Below, in pieces: positions 1 to 35,317 of a DNA stretch of 35,317 nt. Location of the stretch: assembly GCA_016186115.1 (NCBI GenBank), contig JACPMK010000001.1:1-35317 (forward strand), read 5' to 3'. The translations under genes were made by a program, and so were the position numbers. The stretch is from Candidatus Wildermuthbacteria bacterium. GTDB lineage: Bacteria; Patescibacteriota; Minisyncoccia; Minisyncoccales; UBA10102. How positions within the stretch are numbered: the stretch's first letter is position 1; the number at the start of each line of letters is the position of its first letter. The notes under the pieces are model-generated. The model ran no database searches, was not told the origin of the DNA, and saw nothing but the letters and a program-made list of their open reading frames with translations.

Positions 1-141
1 CAGAACCCATTTTGCGGAGAACCCCGATTGACCGCCTCCGCTTCGCTCCGGCGGGACGCTCGGGCGCGGCGGAATTCCCCCCACACCCCCCTTCCGCCGC
101 GCCCTCGCTTCTGGCATTCCGGCGAAAAAATCCGACGGCTA
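1..141. repeat. Left arm of a perfect 141-bp inverted repeat (GC-rich)
   Basis: Bases 1-141 equal the reverse complement of 3081-3221; identity ends at 141/3081. May extend left of the window. Confidence 0.97.
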
Positions 142-226
142 CATTGAAAAAAGAATGGGAAGTTGATATGATTCTATTGCAAGTCATAAAATGTATTATA
201 TCACTTTCCATACATTATAATCTACT

Positions 227-427
227 ATGTCCACAATAGGCAAGAACATCAAGAAATTTCGGCAGGAAAAAGAGCTTTCGCAAGATAAGCTGTCTAAACT
301 TGCCGATTTATCACTCAATACGGTTGTTAAGATAGAACTGGATGAAAGCCCGAACCCGACCATTGAGACAATCCAAAAAATTGCGAAAGCTCTTGATGTT
401 TCGGTTGATGATCTCTTGAAAAAATAA
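227..427 (+). CDS. XRE-family HTH transcriptional regulator (66 aa)
   Basis: IGKNIKKFRQEKELSQDKLSKLADLSLNTVVKIE...PTIETIQKIAKALDVSVDDLL is a canonical HTH_3 pattern. Confidence 0.9.
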   Translation: MSTIGKNIKKFRQEKELSQDKLSKLADLSLNTVVKIELDESPNPTIETIQKIAKALDVSVDDLLKK

Positions 428-428
428 T

Positions 429-1124
429 ATGAACAGACCATATACAACTTTATTTTTGTTAGTTTCAGTGGACGGAAAAATTTCTACTGGTGATACCGAC
501 ACAATGGATGTTGATAAGGATTATCCAAGAATTGATGGGGTGAAAGAGGGTCTGAAGCAGTACTATGATTTAGAGATGGAAACCGACCTATTCTCTCTAA
601 ACACGGGGCGCGTTTTTGCAAAAGTCGGAATGAACGAAAAGACGGACGAACCAAAGAAATTACCAGTTAGTTTTGTTGTGATAGATAACGAACCACACCT
701 GACAGAGAGGGGTGTTTCTTATCTTGCAAAGAAATCAAAAAATCTTATTGTCGCCACCACAAACAAAACTCATTCTGCCATATCGCTAAAAAATAAATTC
801 GATAACATTAGTGTTTTTGAATACCAAGGAAAAGTAGATTTTGGAGATTTATTTTCTAAATTGAAAGAACAATTTGGTGCGGAGAGACTTACTATTCAAT
901 CAGGTGGTACCCTAAATACCACTCTCGTTAGAGAGGGTCTAGTTGATCGTGTTTTTCTTGTGATAGCTCCTGCGCTTGTTGGTGGTAAAAACACCTCCAC
1001 ATTGATGGATGGCGAGTCTCTGCACGCTCCCGATGAGCTAAATAAAATCAAGGCTCTTGAATTGGTAGAGGCAAAACCCCTTAAAAATTCCTACCTGCTT
1101 TTGGAGTACAAAGTCAAAAATTAG
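429..1124 (+). CDS. RibD C-terminal / dihydrofolate reductase-like protein
   Basis: SVDGKIST...LTIQSGGTLNTTLVREGLVDRVFLVIAPALVGGK typical of the RibD_C family; 1-bp gap from upstream gene. Confidence 0.88.
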   Translation: MNRPYTTLFLLVSVDGKISTGDTDTMDVDKDYPRIDGVKEGLKQYYDLEMETDLFSLNTGRVFAKVGMNEKTDEPKKLPVSFVVIDNEPHLTERGVSYLAKKSKNLIVATTNKTHSAISLKNKFDNISVFEYQGKVDFGDLFSKLKEQFGAERLTIQSGGTLNTTLVREGLVDRVFLVIAPALVGGKNTSTLMDGESLHAPDELNKIKALELVEAKPLKNSYLLLEYKVKN

Positions 1125-1125
1125 T

Positions 1126-1674
1126 ATGTCAATAAAAATCACTTATTTTGTTCACGGAACTACGACTGATAACGAACAACATATTTCCTCTGGCTGGAAA
1201 GATATTGAACTCTCGGAACTCGGCGTGAAGCAGTCCATAGAACTGAGAGAGCAGACCAAAGATAAAAATTTTGATGTCGTGTTCTGCTCTGATCTTAAAC
1301 GCGCTTATAACTCCGCAAAACTCGCTTGGGAGGGCATCTGCGACATTATTCCCGACGCACGGCTTCGTGAGTGCAATTACGGCACACTAAACGGGGCATC
1401 ATCGGACATTGTTGAACCCATGCAGGAGGACGAGGCAATCACGAAGCCGTTTCCAGGCGGCGAAAGTTATGAAGATGTTAAAGCCCGTGTCGCGGATTTT
1501 CTCGCGTTCCTAAAACAAAACTACGACGGTAAACACATCGCCATTGTCGCGCACAAAGCGCCACAACTTTCGCTGGATGTGCTCCTCAAGGGTAGGACAT
1601 GGAGACAAGCACTTGCCGAGGATTGGCGTAAGGCCAAAGCATGGAAACCAGGCTGGGAATATGAATTGGAATAG
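1126..1674 (+). CDS. Histidine phosphatase superfamily protein with variant VHG motif
   Basis: YFVHGTTTDNEQHISSGWKDIELSELGVKQ...FCSDLKRAYNSA...IVAHKAPQLSLDVLL; phosphoglycerate-mutase-like fold signature. Confidence 0.82.
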   Translation: MSIKITYFVHGTTTDNEQHISSGWKDIELSELGVKQSIELREQTKDKNFDVVFCSDLKRAYNSAKLAWEGICDIIPDARLRECNYGTLNGASSDIVEPMQEDEAITKPFPGGESYEDVKARVADFLAFLKQNYDGKHIAIVAHKAPQLSLDVLLKGRTWRQALAEDWRKAKAWKPGWEYELE

Positions 1675-1676
1675 TT

Positions 1677-3083
1677 ATGGAAAAACAGATTATTACAATC
1701 GGATACATAATACCGACATTTGATGAAAATCATATTGATTTTTATAGCGGGGCGTCTTTGATGGATGCTGATATTCTACTAATTTCTCCAGAATCATTTG
1801 AGCCAAGGGGAGGTTATGGGAGTTGGATCGAATTTTCTTCAGGAGGAGGTTGCTACAATGCTTCAACATCAAGTGAATACGAGAAAAAAATATCTCATCT
1901 CAAAAAAGAAGTAACGGATTTTTTACAATCTGGAAAAAGTGTTTTTGTCATTTTGTCTAAAGAAGAAAGTCATCTACTTTCATCTGGCGTATCTCACCCC
2001 AGGAAAGGGGAAAATTTACACAGTACATATACGAAAACTAACTATGATTTTTTACCAATCAGTATTGGTACACTAGTGTCCGCCTCCGGGAAAAATATTG
2101 AATTTTCTGGAAACCCACTATTCAGCGATTTTCACGAAAAATTTAAGAAGAGTTTGGAATATCAGCTCTACATTGAGAATCCGGGTAGTGCTCAAGTGAT
2201 TTTTACCGGAAAAGACAAGACGAAAATTCTAGGTGCAATTTATAAAGTTAAAAATGGACATCTTGTAGTATTACCACTCATAAATTATGACGAGAAAAAA
2301 TTTACCGAACACAGGGGTAAGGGTAAAGAAAAGAAAGCATATTGGACAAAAGAGGCAATACAATTCGGCAAATCTCTAGTTAAAACACTTGTTGATGTAG
2401 ATAAAGCTCTTCGCAAAAGCGGAGACAGAACCCCACCTCCCGATTGGACTAGTCAAGCAGATTTTCAATTAACTCAAGAGCAGGTTTTACAGAAAGAGAT
2501 TGAGAAGAAATCAACGGAAATTGATAAGCTCATTTCGCAAAAAAGTGAATTACAGGAGAAAATAGAACAAGAAGTGAGATTGCGTGATTTACTTTTCGAG
2601 AAAGGAAAAATACTTGAAAATGCAATTAATATCGCATTGGAAATTTTGGGTTATACAGCGGAAAATTACAACGACGGAAACCTTGAAATAGATCATGTTA
2701 TCACTTCGCCGGAAAAAGATCGATTTATTGGTGAGGCAGAGGGAAAGGATACTTCTGCGGTAAACATTGAAAAATTCAGCCAGCTAACAAGAATCATTCA
2801 AGAAGATTTACGGAGGGAGGAAGTCGAAAATCCTGCAATTGGTATTTTGTTTGGGAATGGCTTTCGACTGACAAAGCCATCTGAAAGAGTAGAACAATTT
2901 ACGACCAAGTGTATTAGCACTGCGAAGTCATTAAATTGTGTTTTGGTGAGAACGCCCGATTTGTTCCGAGTCGCAAAATACGTAAAAGAGTCTAGGGACG
3001 ATTCTTTTGCGAAAAGCTGTCGAGATGTTATAAAAGATAGTATTGGGAAAATTGTTGATTTTCCTGAAATACCAAAAACATAG
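1677..3083 (+). CDS. Uncharacterised coiled-coil protein with putative C-terminal PD-(D/E)XK nuclease-like domain
   Basis: 468 aa ORF; coiled coil QKEIEKKSTEIDKLISQKSELQEKIEQE; C-terminal EIDHVI...GEAEGKD resembles D...E-x-K catalytic pattern. Function inferred. Confidence 0.6.
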   Translation: MEKQIITIGYIIPTFDENHIDFYSGASLMDADILLISPESFEPRGGYGSWIEFSSGGGCYNASTSSEYEKKISHLKKEVTDFLQSGKSVFVILSKEESHLLSSGVSHPRKGENLHSTYTKTNYDFLPISIGTLVSASGKNIEFSGNPLFSDFHEKFKKSLEYQLYIENPGSAQVIFTGKDKTKILGAIYKVKNGHLVVLPLINYDEKKFTEHRGKGKEKKAYWTKEAIQFGKSLVKTLVDVDKALRKSGDRTPPPDWTSQADFQLTQEQVLQKEIEKKSTEIDKLISQKSELQEKIEQEVRLRDLLFEKGKILENAINIALEILGYTAENYNDGNLEIDHVITSPEKDRFIGEAEGKDTSAVNIEKFSQLTRIIQEDLRREEVENPAIGILFGNGFRLTKPSERVEQFTTKCISTAKSLNCVLVRTPDLFRVAKYVKESRDDSFAKSCRDVIKDSIGKIVDFPEIPKT

Positions 3084-3221
3084 CCGTCGGATTTTTTCGC
3101 CGGAATGCCAGAAGCGAGGGCGCGGCGGAAGGGGGGTGTGGGGGGAATTCCGCCGCGCCCGAGCGTCCCGCCGGAGCGAAGCGGAGGCGGTCAATCGGGG
3201 TTCTCCGCAAAATGGGTTCTG
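3081..3221. repeat. Right arm of the perfect 141-bp inverted repeat
   Basis: Reverse complement of 1-141; supplies the TAG stop of the 1677..3083 ORF. Confidence 0.97.
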
Positions 3222-3263
3222 ACCACCAAAATCCAAAATAACTATTCGAGTCAACGCTAATCT

Positions 3264-3845
3264 ATGCAAAAAAGAGTATTTTTAATTCACGGTTGGGACG
3301 GTTCGCCGGATAGCTGCTGGTTTCCGTGGCTCAAAAACGAATTAGAGCAGCGAGGTTTTGCGGTTGAAGTTCCGGCAATGCCCAATCCCGAAGCGCCAAA
3401 GATTGAGGAATGGATACAATATCTTTCGCAATTGGCAGGCGATGCCGACGAAAATACCTATTTTGTCGGGCACAGCATGGGATGCCGCGCCATTCTTGGT
3501 TTTCTGCAAGGGATCGATGAGGCAAAAAGGATTGGCGGGGCTGTTTTGGTTGCAGGATGGATTAGTTTGTCGCCGTACGCCTTTGAAAGCGAAGAGGATA
3601 AATTAGTTGCCCAGCCATGGCTTCAGATGCCGATTGATTGGGACAGAGTCAAAAAAGTAGGCAACAAATTTGTAGCGATTTTTTCCGATGACGATCCATT
3701 CGTTGCATTGGAAGAAAACAAAGCAACATACGAAGAAAAACTCGGCGCAAAAATAATCGTTGAGCACAACAAAGGGCATTTTAGCGACGACGCCGGCGTA
3801 AAAGAATTGCCCTCTGCCCTCGCCGCCCTTCTCGAAATTGCTTAA
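3264..3845 (+). CDS. Alpha/beta hydrolase, RBBP9/YdeN family
   Basis: VFLIHGWDGSPDSCWFPWLK...YFVGHSMGCRAIL nucleophile elbow; C-terminal GHF. Confidence 0.88.
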   Translation: MQKRVFLIHGWDGSPDSCWFPWLKNELEQRGFAVEVPAMPNPEAPKIEEWIQYLSQLAGDADENTYFVGHSMGCRAILGFLQGIDEAKRIGGAVLVAGWISLSPYAFESEEDKLVAQPWLQMPIDWDRVKKVGNKFVAIFSDDDPFVALEENKATYEEKLGAKIIVEHNKGHFSDDAGVKELPSALAALLEIA

Positions 3846-3872
3846 CTAAGTTAAGCAATTCTGCAGTAGTTT

Positions 3873-4229
3873 ATGGCAAAAATTTGGAAATTAAATTTGT
3901 ATCATCATATATTCCCTTACGTGGCGAACGGGGAGAAAACCGTGGAAGGTAGGGCATGGTCGGAAAAAAGAGATTATCGCAGAATGAGGCGCGGCGATAA
4001 AATTATTTTCAGCGATCTCGGCAGCGACAAAAAAGTTACTGCCGCAATCAAAAGCGTACAGCATTACAAAACCGTTCGGGAGTATTTGAAGAAAGAAGGA
4101 TTAAAAAAGTGTTTGCCGTGGGCAAAAGATTTGGCCGATGGCATCGGCATTTATTACGGCATTGCCGAGGACTGGGAAGAGCGCATCCGCCACGGCGGCA
4201 TCTTCGCAATCCGAATAAAAATGCTGTAG
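3873..4229 (+). CDS. ASCH-domain protein
   Basis: LYHHIFPYVANGEKTVEGRAWSEKRDYRRMRRGDKIIF matches the ASCH pattern. Confidence 0.8.
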   Translation: MAKIWKLNLYHHIFPYVANGEKTVEGRAWSEKRDYRRMRRGDKIIFSDLGSDKKVTAAIKSVQHYKTVREYLKKEGLKKCLPWAKDLADGIGIYYGIAEDWEERIRHGGIFAIRIKML

Positions 4230-4299
4230 GATGAGGAAAAGATTTGGAGAAGTAGAGTTTAATCGAAAATTAAGAATTAAACATTAAAAATTCTGCAAT

Positions 4300-4839
4300 A
4301 TGTATATTCCCATTATTTTGGGCACGGCGAGAGAGGGAAGAAGGGCGGAAAAAGCTGCGAAATTTGTATTGCAGGAGGTTGCGAATGCAGGGATCGAAAC
4401 CGAACTTATTGATGTGCGCGATTTCCCAATTTCTGCAACCGGAGAGCAAGCGCCGGCATTGCAAGAACTTGGCGAAAAATTCAAGCGGGCAGACGGGTAT
4501 ATTATTGTAACGCCAGAGTATAATCACGGCTATCCGGGAGAATTAAAGCAGCTACTCGATTCTTTCTACAATGAGTATGCCAGAAAACCAATCGGGTTTT
4601 GCGGCGTCTCCGGGGGAATTCTGGGTGGTGCGAGGGCAATAGAGCAACTGCGACTGGTTGCGATTGAATTGCACATGGTGCCTATACGCGAGGCAGTGTA
4701 TTTTGGGAACATCAACAATCTTTTTGACGAGCAAGGGAATATTCAGGATCCCTCATGCGCAAAGAGAGTGCAGACCCTTTTAGGGGAGCTCTTGTGGTAT
4801 GCAAAAGCTCTCAAGCCGGCAAGAGAGGAAGGGCGTTGA
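4300..4839 (+). CDS. NADPH-dependent FMN reductase family protein
   Basis: IILGTAREGRRAEK...VTPEYNHGYPGELKQLLD...GVSGGILGGARAIEQLR. Confidence 0.88.
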   Translation: MYIPIILGTAREGRRAEKAAKFVLQEVANAGIETELIDVRDFPISATGEQAPALQELGEKFKRADGYIIVTPEYNHGYPGELKQLLDSFYNEYARKPIGFCGVSGGILGGARAIEQLRLVAIELHMVPIREAVYFGNINNLFDEQGNIQDPSCAKRVQTLLGELLWYAKALKPAREEGR

Positions 4840-4864
4840 CAAGAAAAAGAGGGCATGGTATAAG
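4836..4864 (+). promoter_or_regulatory. Sigma70-like promoter upstream of nusA
   Basis: TTGACA (4836-4841), 17-bp spacer, TATAAG (4859-4864). Confidence 0.7.
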
Positions 4865-4979
4865 AAAAATCAGAAAGAAATGTCCGCGCGAGCGGGCATC
4901 GTTTTATAGAAAACGCAATTTTTAATTTATTTCTCAATTTATTAAAAATTAAGAACTAAAAATTAGAAATTTTATCGGT

Positions 4980-6194
4980 ATGATCGATCTCAAAAGTTTT
5001 TCAGTTCTGCTTGATCAGATCGCAGAAGAAAAAGGTTTGAACAGGCAGCAAGTCATTGAGGCCATCGAGCAGGCAATTGCTGCTGCTTATAAAAAGGACT
5101 ACGGAAAACGCGGTCAGAATATCAAGGCAAAATTAAATCTGGAAACAGGCAAAGTTGAGTTTTGGCAGGAAAAACTTGTGGTGGATGAAAGCATGATTTA
5201 TTCCGAAGAAGAGCTGGAGCAGCTGAAAGAAAAAAGGGAACCGATTGAGGAAGAAGCAGAAGAAGGCAAGAAGATCAGGTTTAATCCCGAGCGCCATCTT
5301 ATGGTTGAGGAGGCAAAGACATTGCAGGAAGATGCAAAAGTGGGCGATGCCATTGAAATTCCTTTGGAAAGCAAAATGGATTATGGCAGAATCGCAGCGC
5401 AAACAGCAAAGCAAGTCATTTTGCAAAAGATTCGCGAGGCCGAGCGTTCTTCGATCTGGAATGAATTTAAGTCCAAAGAAGGAGAGCTGCTTTCCGGCAT
5501 TATTCAGCGCATCGAAGGAAGAGTTATTTTTGTAGACCTTGGCAAAACACTCGGAATTTTTCCAAAAGAAGAACATGTGCCGGGGGAGTTTTACCGCCCC
5601 GGCCAAAGATTGCGGTTTTACGTTTTGCGCGTGGAGGACAGCCCCAAAGGGCCAAGCGTGCTTTTGTCGCGGGCATATCCCAAATTTGTTTCCAAACTTT
5701 TTGAATTGGAAGTTCCGGAGATTCCTGCCGGCACCATTGAAATTAAATCAATTGCCAGAGAAGCGGGATCGCGTTCCAAGGTGGCGGCGGCATCTTCGGC
5801 AGAAGGAGTGGATCCGATCGGCGCTATGGTTGGCCAGCGGGGCACAAGAGTGGGGTCAGTGATCAATGAACTGGGTGGAGAAAAAATTGATATTGTGGAA
5901 TGGGCCGAGGATCCGGAACTTTTTGTTGCGCACGCGCTCTCCCCTGCCAAAGTGTTACAAGTCACTGTATTGCCGAAGAATCGGGTTATTGCTTTGGTGC
6001 CAGAGGATCAGTTGTCGCTCGCAATCGGGAAAGAAGGGCAGAATGTGCGGCTTGCTGCAAAACTTACTGGCTGGAAAATTGATGTGCGCACGCCCGAAGG
6101 CAAACAAGTTGAAATGGAGGAGGGGCAGGAAGAAAAACCCGACGAGCAAGCAGAAGAAAAAACAGAAGAGACAAAAGAAGAAACCCCCGCATAA
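4980..6194 (+). CDS. nusA: Transcription termination/antitermination protein NusA
   Basis: N-terminal NusA domain, S1 (GIIQRIEGRVIFVDLGKTLGIFPKEEHVPGE), KH (DPIGAMVGQRGTRV; LAIGKEGQNVRLAAKLTGWKIDV). Confidence 0.96.
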   Translation: MIDLKSFSVLLDQIAEEKGLNRQQVIEAIEQAIAAAYKKDYGKRGQNIKAKLNLETGKVEFWQEKLVVDESMIYSEEELEQLKEKREPIEEEAEEGKKIRFNPERHLMVEEAKTLQEDAKVGDAIEIPLESKMDYGRIAAQTAKQVILQKIREAERSSIWNEFKSKEGELLSGIIQRIEGRVIFVDLGKTLGIFPKEEHVPGEFYRPGQRLRFYVLRVEDSPKGPSVLLSRAYPKFVSKLFELEVPEIPAGTIEIKSIAREAGSRSKVAAASSAEGVDPIGAMVGQRGTRVGSVINELGGEKIDIVEWAEDPELFVAHALSPAKVLQVTVLPKNRVIALVPEDQLSLAIGKEGQNVRLAAKLTGWKIDVRTPEGKQVEMEEGQEEKPDEQAEEKTEETKEETPA

Positions 6195-31798: not shown

Positions 31799-31902
31799 GT
31801 ATCCATGATAACACTTGTTGTTCGGTTAGTAAAAGCTTTCTATCCACAATGTGCCCTTTGTTTGAAAATGCGCGAACCTTCTTTGAACGAAACTGACGCT
31901 CC

Positions 31903-32045
31903 GCCCCGCCGCCGCTCGCTAACGCTCGCCACCCCGCAAAAAAGTTTTCTTCACATTTTTTGATTTGCGCGCCCGATTTTTTCTTTTAAAAGGAAAAGAA
32001 AACTTTTTTGCTGGGTTCTGCTCTGAACGAGCAGGGCGGCGGGGC
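31903..32045. repeat. Long imperfect GC-rich inverted repeat
   Basis: GCCCCGCCGCC (31903-31913)...GCAAAAAAGTTTTCTT (31936-31951) / AAGAAAACTTTTTTGC (31996-32011)...GGCGGCGGGGC (32035-32045). Confidence 0.85.
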
Positions 32046-32095
32046 TTCGCTTCGGCTCGGGCGCGCTTTGGACGCCGACGGAATTTGTGCCAGCG

Positions 32096-32485
32096 TTAGC
32101 TGGCGCGCCGCTCAAAATTTTTCAAATAATCCTTAATTCTTTCACGGTCTTCGTTTTCTTTTTCGCCCTTGAAATATATCTCAATAAAATCAATTTTACA
32201 ACTTTGGCAATGAAAGGCGTAGATAACTCGTATTCCACTCTTTGAACCCCGCCCTTTTAGGGCCTTGCAAGCGAATTTTTTTATTTTACAAACATAAATT
32301 TCTTCCGTGCAAAAACCTTGTATCGGAAAAACGCTTGAATTATTTATCTTCTGAATATGATAAAACTCAATAGCCGCTATTTTTGCGAGCTCTAAATCAC
32401 TCTCAAGTGATTTGAATTTTTTGAGTAGTTTTTTGAAATCTTTTTGAAATTCCGGCGTTTCGCCATAATTAATCTTGCTGGTCAT
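32096..32485 (-). CDS. RelE/ParE-like putative toxin
   Basis: FQKDFKKLLKKFKSLESDLELAK...KGRGSKSGIRVIYAFHCQSCKIDFIEIYFKGEKENEDRERIKDYL; overlaps antitoxin by 17 nt. Confidence 0.75.
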   Translation of the reverse strand: MTSKINYGETPEFQKDFKKLLKKFKSLESDLELAKIAAIEFYHIQKINNSSVFPIQGFCTEEIYVCKIKKFACKALKGRGSKSGIRVIYAFHCQSCKIDFIEIYFKGEKENEDRERIKDYLKNFERRAS

Positions 32486-33248
32486 AGTTTCTCACAGAAG
32501 TTTTAGGAGTGCGGTAGAATACGGCCTCGTAATCAAGCGGCTGATTTTCTTTCGCAACGAGCCAAGGAGTGTCCTCGTGAGAATATTCGCTTAATTCTGT
32601 GGCGTTCTTATCGCCCAATCTTGCTATTACTTCGTCAATATGACGCAATTCGCGCGCGTCTTTTAATTTTGTCAAATCCGGTTCACGAATTGGCAAGTAT
32701 TTTCTTTGCGGATAATTAAAATATTTTCCTTCTACTTTTACAACCTCGCCGTTTTTGATCATATCGTCAACAATAGTTTTGAACTCAACGGGTGTAGGCC
32801 CATAATGATTTTTAATATATGTCGCGCCGACAAGCTGTTCCTCAAATTTTTCGTAAAAATCAAAATCAATAAAATAAAGCAATTTATAAACCACGGCTTC
32901 GCCGACATTCGGCTTGCCGCCTACTTTTGATAAAACATAAAGTAAAACTTCTTTGAATTTTTCAAGATTTTTTTGAGGAACGCTTATTCTCATTCCTGAT
33001 TTTTCTTCTTTTATTTTTTTCACAATTTTTTTAATCTCTGCCGTATTGGAGGGAACCTTGCCCTTGATAAAATCGTTAAAATCAATGCCAAAAACATCTG
33101 CAAGTTTTTTTGCTTCTGAAATAGTTATGTCACGCTCGCCTTGTTCTATCTGAATATAAGTCGGGCGAGAAACGCCAATCTTTGACGCCAAAAACTCCTG
33201 CGTCAAATTGTGCTTTTTTCGTTGTTCTAATATAAATTTACCAAGCAT
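32469..33248 (-). CDS. XRE HTH + Panacea (SocA/DUF4065-like) antitoxin
   Basis: HTH LGKFILEQRKKHNLTQEFLASKIGVSRPTYIQIEQGERDIT; LLYFIDFDFYEKFEEQLVGATYIKNHYGPTPVEF is the Panacea pattern. Confidence 0.85.
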   Translation of the reverse strand: MLGKFILEQRKKHNLTQEFLASKIGVSRPTYIQIEQGERDITISEAKKLADVFGIDFNDFIKGKVPSNTAEIKKIVKKIKEEKSGMRISVPQKNLEKFKEVLLYVLSKVGGKPNVGEAVVYKLLYFIDFDFYEKFEEQLVGATYIKNHYGPTPVEFKTIVDDMIKNGEVVKVEGKYFNYPQRKYLPIREPDLTKLKDARELRHIDEVIARLGDKNATELSEYSHEDTPWLVAKENQPLDYEAVFYRTPKTSVRNYDQQD

Positions 33249-33497
33249 ATTGTTATCTCCAGTATAATCCTTGTAAAATTCTTTGTCAAGCCAGTGCCAA
33301 GATATTTGACAAACACCACGAAAGGACTAAAATAAATAGGGAGTGACGATTGTTTGCGGCAATAGCATCTCTCCCCATTCACAGAAATGTCTTTTTCGCC
33401 CTTTGGGGCATTTCAGCTAGACCTGTAATAAACCACAACTTTATTTTAACAGATTTAGACAATTTAATAAACAAGAGCGGTTAATAATCCAAACAAC

Positions 33498-33719
33498 ATG
33501 GTTAATCAAGTATTCGTTAGCCCTGACGGCGAGGATTGGAAAGTTAAGGTTGTCGGTAATCAAAAGGCTTCGGCCATTTGCGACACAAAAGCGGAAGCGG
33601 TTGAGCGCGCCAAAGAAATCGCGCAAAATCAACGCCTTGAACTTCTTGTCCAAAACTTAGACGGGACTATCGGCTGGAGAAATTCCTACGGGAACGATCC
33701 GAGAAAATCAAAAGGATAG
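33498..33719 (+). CDS. DUF2188-family protein
   Basis: VFVSPDGEDWKVKVVGNQKASAICDTKAEAVERAKEIAQNQRLELLVQNLDGTIGWRNSYGNDPRKSKG. Confidence 0.85.
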   Translation: MVNQVFVSPDGEDWKVKVVGNQKASAICDTKAEAVERAKEIAQNQRLELLVQNLDGTIGWRNSYGNDPRKSKG

Positions 33720-33727
33720 AAGATAGA

Positions 33728-33760
33728 AAAAGAACGAGACCGCAACTCGTTCTTTTTTTG
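33728..33760. terminator. Terminator hairpin between convergent genes
   Basis: aaaaAGAACGAGaccgcaaCTCGTTCTttttttt. Confidence 0.8.
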
Positions 33761-33776
33761 CATTTTTCAAAAATTT

Positions 33777-34862
33777 TTAACTTCTATTTCCCTTTTTAAT
33801 ATTGCAAGGACGGCATCGTAATTCAGCGTTTGAAAGTTCGGTTCTACCGCCCTTACTCCACGGGTCTACATGATCCATTGTTAATTCCTCGGTATAAAAA
33901 TACTTTTTGCAGTCCGCACATTGATATTTATTCTCTTTATTCGGCTTCTTCTTTCTTAAAAATTCTTTTTTGTCGTCGCTAGAAAATAATCTTTTATCGT
34001 CAACGCTGATATTATTAACAATGGCTTGAATAATATCTTCTATTTCTTTTGCTTTATCAGTCAATTTTGCGTCGTCGCTCTTTAAATATCTTTTGACACG
34101 AGAATTTATTTCGTCTTTATTTTGTTTCCATATAACCGAGTCCTTAAAATATTTTCTCGCCAAATCAAAATAAATATCTAATTGTCCATAGTCATCAAAA
34201 ATTTCCCTAACGAATTTAATATATTTGCCTATCTCTCTTTGGTCGTCTGTAAAAGATTTTTTCTGATTTGCATTTATATAGTCGTTTATACTCTGCGCGT
34301 CTTTCGGCAAATTTTTCAATTCCATCAATAATTGCAAAACTCTATATTGATTTTTACCTCGGCTGTTGGCGTTTAGAACTTTCAGCGCGTCTCTATCTTG
34401 CCCGACATAAACAGTTAAACCTCTTAAATACTCGCCGTGAAAAAGGCCGTTCAAGACTTCATAAGGAGAAAGTGGAACGCCCAAAGTGTTAATTCTTCTA
34501 AATATCTCCCTTTTTAATTGTTCTTTGCCTTCACAAACAATGATTGAAAGCTCGGCATTATTGATTATATCTTGAACTTTTTTGTCCGTTTGTTTCCACA
34601 ATTTATCTTGATATTGGATGTCGTTTTCAATAAATTTTTTAATGGCTTCTATTCTTTGTTTGCCGTCCAATACTTCCAAAATTCCTTCGTCATTTTTCCA
34701 AAAATAAAAAGCGGGTAACGGAATCCCATTAACGATACTGTCTATAACTAGTATTTGTTTTCCGGTATCATAAACTATCTCTCTTTGGAGTTCTATGTCG
34801 CTGATAATTTTTCCGTCCCTAAGTTGTTCGTATAAAGTTTTGATATTCATATTATTTTTCAT
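33777..34862 (-). CDS. DUF262 (GmrS/ParB-like) protein fused to C-terminal HNH endonuclease
   Basis: DIELQREIVYDTGKQILVIDSIVNGIPLPAFYFW...LEVLDGKQRIEAI...FRRINTLGVPLSPYEVLNG; HNH CADCKKYFYTEELTMDHVDPWSKGGRTELSNAELRCRPCNIKKGN. Confidence 0.9.
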   Translation of the reverse strand: MKNNMNIKTLYEQLRDGKIISDIELQREIVYDTGKQILVIDSIVNGIPLPAFYFWKNDEGILEVLDGKQRIEAIKKFIENDIQYQDKLWKQTDKKVQDIINNAELSIIVCEGKEQLKREIFRRINTLGVPLSPYEVLNGLFHGEYLRGLTVYVGQDRDALKVLNANSRGKNQYRVLQLLMELKNLPKDAQSINDYINANQKKSFTDDQREIGKYIKFVREIFDDYGQLDIYFDLARKYFKDSVIWKQNKDEINSRVKRYLKSDDAKLTDKAKEIEDIIQAIVNNISVDDKRLFSSDDKKEFLRKKKPNKENKYQCADCKKYFYTEELTMDHVDPWSKGGRTELSNAELRCRPCNIKKGNRS

Positions 34863-35317
34863 TTTTAATTACCTCTCTATTTTTTATTAAAATTCTTTCA
34901 AAAGGTGCCCTGAAAGGTTTTCCGTCCTTTTCAATCCAGAGCGTAGCCTTATCACCCTTGAACCTTACTGTTTTTTCAACCTGAACCCCTTTTCCTACAA
35001 TCTTAAACTGCTGTGGATTATACTTTGTCAAAAAAGTAACTGGAACACCCATAATACCATCAAAATCAGAAGGTATTTTTTTTGTTTTTTCTACGTCCAC
35101 GCCATTATAATTGTAATATTTTGGGTATTTTTCGGGGCTATAATTCTCCGTCAAAATCATCCTATCGTGCCTATAAGCAACATCCAAATTCGTGTACCAT
35201 TTACAAGCACGAGGCACTGATCCTTCGGGATTTTTTGAAAGAACAAGAGTACCATCAGCTAATCGAAATCCGGATAATTGTTTTGCGTAACCAAGCCACA
35301 TTTTATTGTCTTTTATA
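34852..35317 (-). CDS. EcoRI-family adenine-specific DNA methyltransferase (C-terminal part, 5' truncated by window edge)
   Basis: WYTNLDVAYRHDRMILTENYSPEKYPKYYNYNGVDVEKTKKIPSDFDGIMGVPVTFLTKYNPQQFKIVG; frame stays open to 35317 (IKDNKMWLGY...). Confidence 0.85.
   Translation of the reverse strand, partial: IKDNKMWLGYAKQLSGFRLADGTLVLSKNPEGSVPRACKWYTNLDVAYRHDRMILTENYSPEKYPKYYNYNGVDVEKTKKIPSDFDGIMGVPVTFLTKYNPQQFKIVGKGVQVEKTVRFKGDKATLWIEKDGKPFRAPFERILIKNREVIKNEK

Follow-up and report, generated by a model that had tools for sequence, protein, structure and literature searches.

The question raised by this locus is what kind of genetic unit lies between the two inverted arms found at the start of the window, by which we mean the whole stretch of DNA analysed here (35,317 nucleotides from a Candidatus Wildermuthbacteria bacterium, which make up all of contig C1 in a genome of three contigs and 667 kb). 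Positions 1-141 are the exact reverse complement of positions 3081-3221, with 2939 nt separating both arms. An exact match of 141 nt is far above chance expectation, and the perfect inverted repeat claimed by a first-pass annotation of this DNA was confirmed. Since the window is a whole contig, its first base is a contig end and not an element boundary, and the 141 bp of the left arm (1..141, + strand), cut off by the contig end, are a lower bound. The value itself looks as if it had been set by the k-mer length of the assembler, as contigs from two relatives (L066 and L116) are bounded on both sides by inverted repeats that are again exactly 141 bp long and the L116 contig is named k141, a label present in many contig names; 141 is the usual last k of MEGAHIT. 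The true arm may be longer. The contig end at base 1, this common final k-mer length and the same 141-bp ends in L066 and L116 would also fit an artefact of assembly, in which a collapsed repeat or a chimera gives rise to the inverted arm at base 1. However, the assembler accounts for the length of 141 and not for the existence of two arms, and many independent loci obtained with different assemblers have both arms, of 70-356 bp, inside contigs, so we consider an artefact very improbable.

Four genes lie between the arms on the + strand. Their coordinates confirm the gaps of 1-2 nt described earlier, and neither gene nor Pfam annotation places a transposase or recombinase inside the cassette, again as first described. 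The first gene (227..427) encodes a small XRE/Cro-type HTH regulator (PF01381, 3e-14), followed by a protein with a RibD C-terminal domain, pyrimidine/dihydrofolate reductase-like (429..1124; PF01872, 5.5e-22), a histidine phosphatase of branch 1 (1126..1674; PF00300, 6.8e-31) and a 468-aa protein with no family assigned (1677..3083), the stop codon of which falls within the right arm. This last protein had been labelled nuclease-like, a label that we could not maintain: it has no match in Pfam, PDB or NCBIfam, and the PD-(D/E)xK-like ExK motif near its C-terminus, located in GEAEGKD and invariant as GExEGKD across three homologues, is only suggestive. Its AlphaFold model, built from three sequences, reached a pLDDT of 53 and was too poor for a structure search. 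With Padloc, the four cargo proteins gave no strong match, the regulator excepted. Another cassette (G130) ends with a gene for a homologue of the 468-aa protein and also encodes an XRE regulator, a DNA methylase and a restriction subunit of type III-like character. A relative of the histidine phosphatase, 75% identical, is found near another arm (L145). These two contexts make a defence role plausible for the four genes between the arms, which form an XRE-led operon whose products probably have defence or accessory functions.

The arm core recurs as inverted pairs in relatives. Its exact pattern was detected in at least 119 stretches of GTDB genomes, mostly Patescibacteria, and in 58 of the 387 genomes of the class, against 0 for the reversed-pattern control. 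A total of 45 cassettes, nearly all from Patescibacteria MAGs, were analysed (35 for statistics). In these, near-perfect GC-rich arms, 70-356 bp long, enclose low-GC cargo of 1.5-7.3 kb, the median GC content being 60% in arms, 36% in cargo and 43% in flanks, with cargo lower than flank (0.36 versus 0.43, Wilcoxon p=2e-5). The median arm identity is 0.995 within an element and 0.73 between elements, and arms of different elements in one genome share 0.72-0.83 identity. Such homogenisation within elements (median 99.5%) and not between them (73%) fits the recent origin or gene conversion previously proposed for the repeat. Arm cores were also observed in records labelled Methanoperedens, Syntrophaceae, Bacteroidia, Nitrospira and Marinimicrobia (L109, L123, L133, L150, L157 and others), which are candidates for mis-binning or transfer, and a 4.4-kb IMG/VR contig listed as viral (L202) is a cassette bounded by 99-bp arms that was probably misclassified.

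Each arm carries a covarying hairpin, whose conserved core GGGCGCGGCGG-AATTCCCCCCACACCCCCCTT-CCGCCGCGCCC occupies 62..104 (+) in the window and is mirrored at 3118-3160; it was defined from the fold and from compensatory stem changes among 115 distinct cores. At the first three positions flanking the invariant core, the stem is Watson-Crick paired in 103, 110 and 107 of the 115 cores, compared with 33, 46 and 57 expected. Palindrome-driven repair could be an alternative source of this covariation. An Rfam search with the arm returned nothing except tRNAs and spurious matches. The arm might be a common intergenic hairpin or terminator repeat unconnected to cassettes, a GC-rich hairpin being conserved and some copies being solo. 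Against this, pairs of arms around cargo are almost always oriented + then -, in association with tRNA/LSR and XRE genes, and the solo copies of this genome are att sites next to tRNAs, which makes this explanation the least probable of all those considered. The search for other arm copies in the genome, advised by the first-pass annotation, yielded solo sites beside tRNAs that repeat the target ends. Among them, two remnants on contig C2 are decayed elements, one at tRNA-Ser(gga) (L038, 3600-4760) with CCGCCA as the distal copy of the tRNA end, and the other at tRNA-Gln(ttg) (L039, 5200-5560) with CAGCCA.

What lies beyond the arms was seen in six complete elements (L062, L063, L088, L157, L186 and L262). 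In these, the arm on the XRE side overlaps by 3-10 bp a second inverted-repeat unit of 1.6-1.8 kb, which encodes a large serine recombinase (LSR) and ends at the 3' end of a tRNA or tmRNA gene. LSR genes were convergent on a tRNA/tmRNA 3' end in about 18 of 20 evaluable cases (near full length and with enough flank, as judged by hand), with many tRNA species concerned and often an antisense overlap. The reverse complement of the LSR/cargo junction is the attP predicted from attR and attL, exactly in 4 of the 6 complete elements and nearly so in 2. On this basis, an element holds two inverted attP copies, one split into attL and attR at the tRNA and the other intact between LSR and cargo. The features of an LSR-type element were found together (an encoded LSR, an attP at the junction of the element, and attL and attR whose joining restores the target), along with those of a tRNA genomic island, that is, insertion at a tRNA 3' end and repetition of this end on the distal side. 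The LSR reading frame of several loci (L062, L063, L088, L157, L186, L100 and others) stops inside the opposite-strand tRNA gene, so that its final codons are supplied by the target and excision would alter them.

Long terminal inverted repeats with no transposase inside could also belong to a non-autonomous transposon or to a MITE- or IS-bounded composite mobilised in trans by a DDE or HUH transposase, and a MITE-bounded composite had been suggested for this locus. However, the outer ends correspond to tRNA-derived att sites with cores of 3-10 bp and not to random target duplications, the recurrent neighbour is an LSR, and the arms of different elements in one genome diverge to the extent given above. 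Neither a transposase-type target-site duplication nor a DDE/HUH gene was found in the loci examined, and we judge this reading as improbable as an artefact. The perfect inverted arms and the serine recombinases nearby may also recall an invertible cassette, in which recombination between the arms flips the operon like a phase-variation switch; homologous recombination between the arms could homogenise them as well. In contrast to what inversion would give, the XRE gene lay towards the LSR/tRNA in every one of the 14 informative loci, namely those with the LSR/tRNA side known and an XRE gene found (p=1.2e-4), and the operon has its own first gene as well as promoter-like sites in the arms, the frequency of which is not above chance there. 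The inversion switch put forward earlier is thus disfavoured and, although it stands ahead of the other alternatives, very unlikely.

We come back to the integrative element and to its site in this genome. In 13 relatives, tRNA-Ala(cgc) is located upstream of nusA. Here, nusA is found on C1 behind the cassette, in a chromosomal right flank assigned by Pfam and synteny that encodes a serine hydrolase, an ASCH protein, an FMN reductase and NusA (3264..6194, +), and tRNA-Ala(cgc) is found at the start of C3 after the 3' part of an LSR gene, the only part assembled at this site, and before tRNA-Pro(cgg) and tRNA-Arg(tcg) in conserved order. The right repeat is adjoined by ACCACCA at 3222-3228, and we read the two together as an attachment site. 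The attR core, CCAC (3223-3226) then CA (3223..3228, +), is read as the displaced end of tRNA-Ala(cgc), the attL counterpart being at the C3 start. With a slash marking the joint, the occupied tRNA at attL ends GGGTCCAC/ATTTCC and attR on the distal side of the window reads TGACCAC/CAAAATCC; once rejoined, they give GGGTCCAC/CAAAATCC (GGGTCCACCA), a normal tRNA CCA end. The right arm (3081..3221, - strand) is read as the distal cargo arm, the P side of attR, and the left one, by the exact repeat and the arm class shared with relatives, as the recombinase-proximal cargo arm, the P side of an inverted attP copy.

As no contig spans the C3-C1 junction and the LSR 5' part is missing, the link within this genome rests on synteny and att sequences, from which we infer that C3 joins C1 and that the cassette sits between tRNA-Ala(cgc) and nusA. 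Contig C2, with an LSR at tRNA-Ala(tgc) or tRNA-Ile, was also considered as the neighbour of C1 and dropped, nusA synteny pointing to C3 and tRNA-Ala(cgc). The attR half-site of the window lacks about 16 bp relative to its counterpart in L088, which has the same target tRNA, and may therefore be damaged. Near-empty sites (G013, G008 and G021) show tRNA-Ala close to the FMN reductase gene or nusA without a cassette. At the orthologous site of G009, a decayed arm, 88% identical over the inner 48 bp, accompanies unrelated cargo, encoding Fic-like and SGNH-hydrolase-like proteins (named by eye). This suggests that cargo can be replaced while arms persist. In total, four LSR genes or fragments were counted in the 667-kb genome, at tRNA-Ile(tat), tRNA-Arg(tcg), tRNA-Ala(tgc) and tRNA-Ala(cgc). 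They are positioned at the C2 end (L035, 4176-5756), on C3 (L036, 2727-4433) and at the starts of C2 and C3, three of the four coinciding with contig breaks. The LSR at the C2 end has 527 aa and the Resolvase, Recombinase and zinc ribbon domains (PF00239/PF07508/PF13408).

Altogether, we hold it highly probable that the adjacent LSR mobilises an integrative element whose cargo module is this segment, and that the element entered the tRNA-Ala(cgc) gene at its 3' end, upstream of nusA. The cargo element or non-autonomous mobile unit originally proposed was essentially right, the segment being the cargo-bearing half of an element of the LSR integrative type, with the LSR itself just beyond the contig end. 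In the mechanism that we propose, the element would carry two extended attP copies inverted relative to each other, with the A arm (the attP side repeated here) bordering the cargo and the B arm (the other side) bordering the LSR gene. Integration, most likely catalysed by the LSR and presumably through a circular intermediate, would recombine one attP with the tRNA gene 3' end. The tRNA would then abut the B arm and LSR, the second attP would remain intact where LSR and cargo meet, and the displaced chromosome would be joined to the distal A arm. In this genome, the target would be tRNA-Ala(cgc) upstream of nusA, with the LSR end at the C3 start and the window beginning at the cargo arm. The arms would be extended attP flanks homogenised within each element. 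Arm pairs, arm family, LSR-tRNA linkage, inverted attP, synteny and att-site reconstruction are direct observations; our leading guess is that the inverted attP duplication and the hairpin conservation serve cassette exchange through shared arms.

The window contains a second, partial cassette at its right end (31851-35317), of the same arm family and with restriction-type genes. Its distal-type arm (31851..32118, +), matched by eye to the L062 and L063 arms, includes an AT-rich hairpin (31931-32016), and its cargo (32472..35317, -) encodes an XRE-SocA/Panacea antitoxin, a GmrSD/HNH nuclease and an EcoRI-type methylase whose gene runs off the contig. Across the family, a small XRE gene came first in 42 of 45 cassettes, and in 41 of these it was less than 400 bp from the arm and read away from it. 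HTH_3 was found in 23/129 cargo ORFs versus 0/112 flank ORFs (p=4e-7), and two DNA methylase families had 12 matches in the same cargo ORFs versus 2 in the flank ORFs (p=0.013). Cargo is rich in restriction-modification genes, for instance type I in L063 (from translations) and type II in L066, and L062 encodes a CBASS-type SMODS nucleotidyltransferase with a methylase. Not all cargo is related to defence, since L064 contains arsenic/redox-like genes (by eye). The element design recurs across ultra-small Patescibacteria, mostly with restriction and other anti-phage-type genes.

Among known systems, the closest analogue is the cassette chromosome of Staphylococcus and Enterococcus (SCC/ECC), which uses CcrAB large serine recombinases, enters a conserved gene at its 3' end, is bounded by att repeats and combines few conserved genes with variable cargo (PMC6222049). 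The elements described here resemble it in that their recombinase is of the LSR type, their insertion point is the 3' terminus of a conserved gene, att repeats mark either end, and few genes are conserved beside a variable cargo. They differ in targeting tRNA/tmRNA and not rlmH 3' ends, in having one LSR and not a ccrAB pair, in carrying two inverted attP with 70-356 bp arms where SCC/ECC has direct repeats of about 50 bp, and in their kb size and fixed XRE-led cargo. Against NCBIfam, the LSR matched CcrA (3.9e-24) and CcrB (2e-20) below cut-off, the best Ccr score being 85.6 bits for a cut-off of 700. Membership in SCC/ECC was rejected, as both rlmH targeting and assignment to ccrA, ccrB or ccrC failed. 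With tRNA-targeted genomic islands, the elements share the tRNA 3' end target and the displaced tRNA-end copy at the far side; such islands usually have tyrosine integrases and simple direct repeats, whereas the elements here combine an LSR with a very short core and with attP copies in inverted orientation. Acinetobacter pdif modules hold cargo between inverted 28-bp dif sites used by Xer tyrosine recombinases. As generally described, they are alike in their small cargo between inverted recombination sites with the recombinase outside the module, and unlike in having neither an LSR nor arms of 70-356 bp. In Patescibacteria, genomic islands that carry restriction-modification genes, a cargo similar to that seen here, were reported (PMC12455944), and the main text of that report contains none of the terms recombinase, inverted repeat and tRNA. 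Within the limited coverage of open papers, no earlier description of the arm/LSR-tRNA family was found, and its novelty is provisional.

A wider reading is that these are undescribed, Patescibacteria-wide modular elements, in which inverted attP arms would act as sockets for XRE and defence cassettes swapped between hosts and tRNA sites, with arm hairpins aiding the exchange; we see this as an even call. Defence systems are often said to be scarce in Patescibacteria, and a compact, uniform vehicle loading restriction-modification and defence-type genes beside tRNAs would explain how these bacteria acquire such genes. The arm core, together with an LSR at a tRNA end, would provide a simple sequence handle for finding defence-type genes, and the elements a further group of new serine recombinases that target tRNA ends. 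Finally, two features pose puzzles that can be tested, namely the second attP in inverted orientation and the covarying hairpin of the arms.
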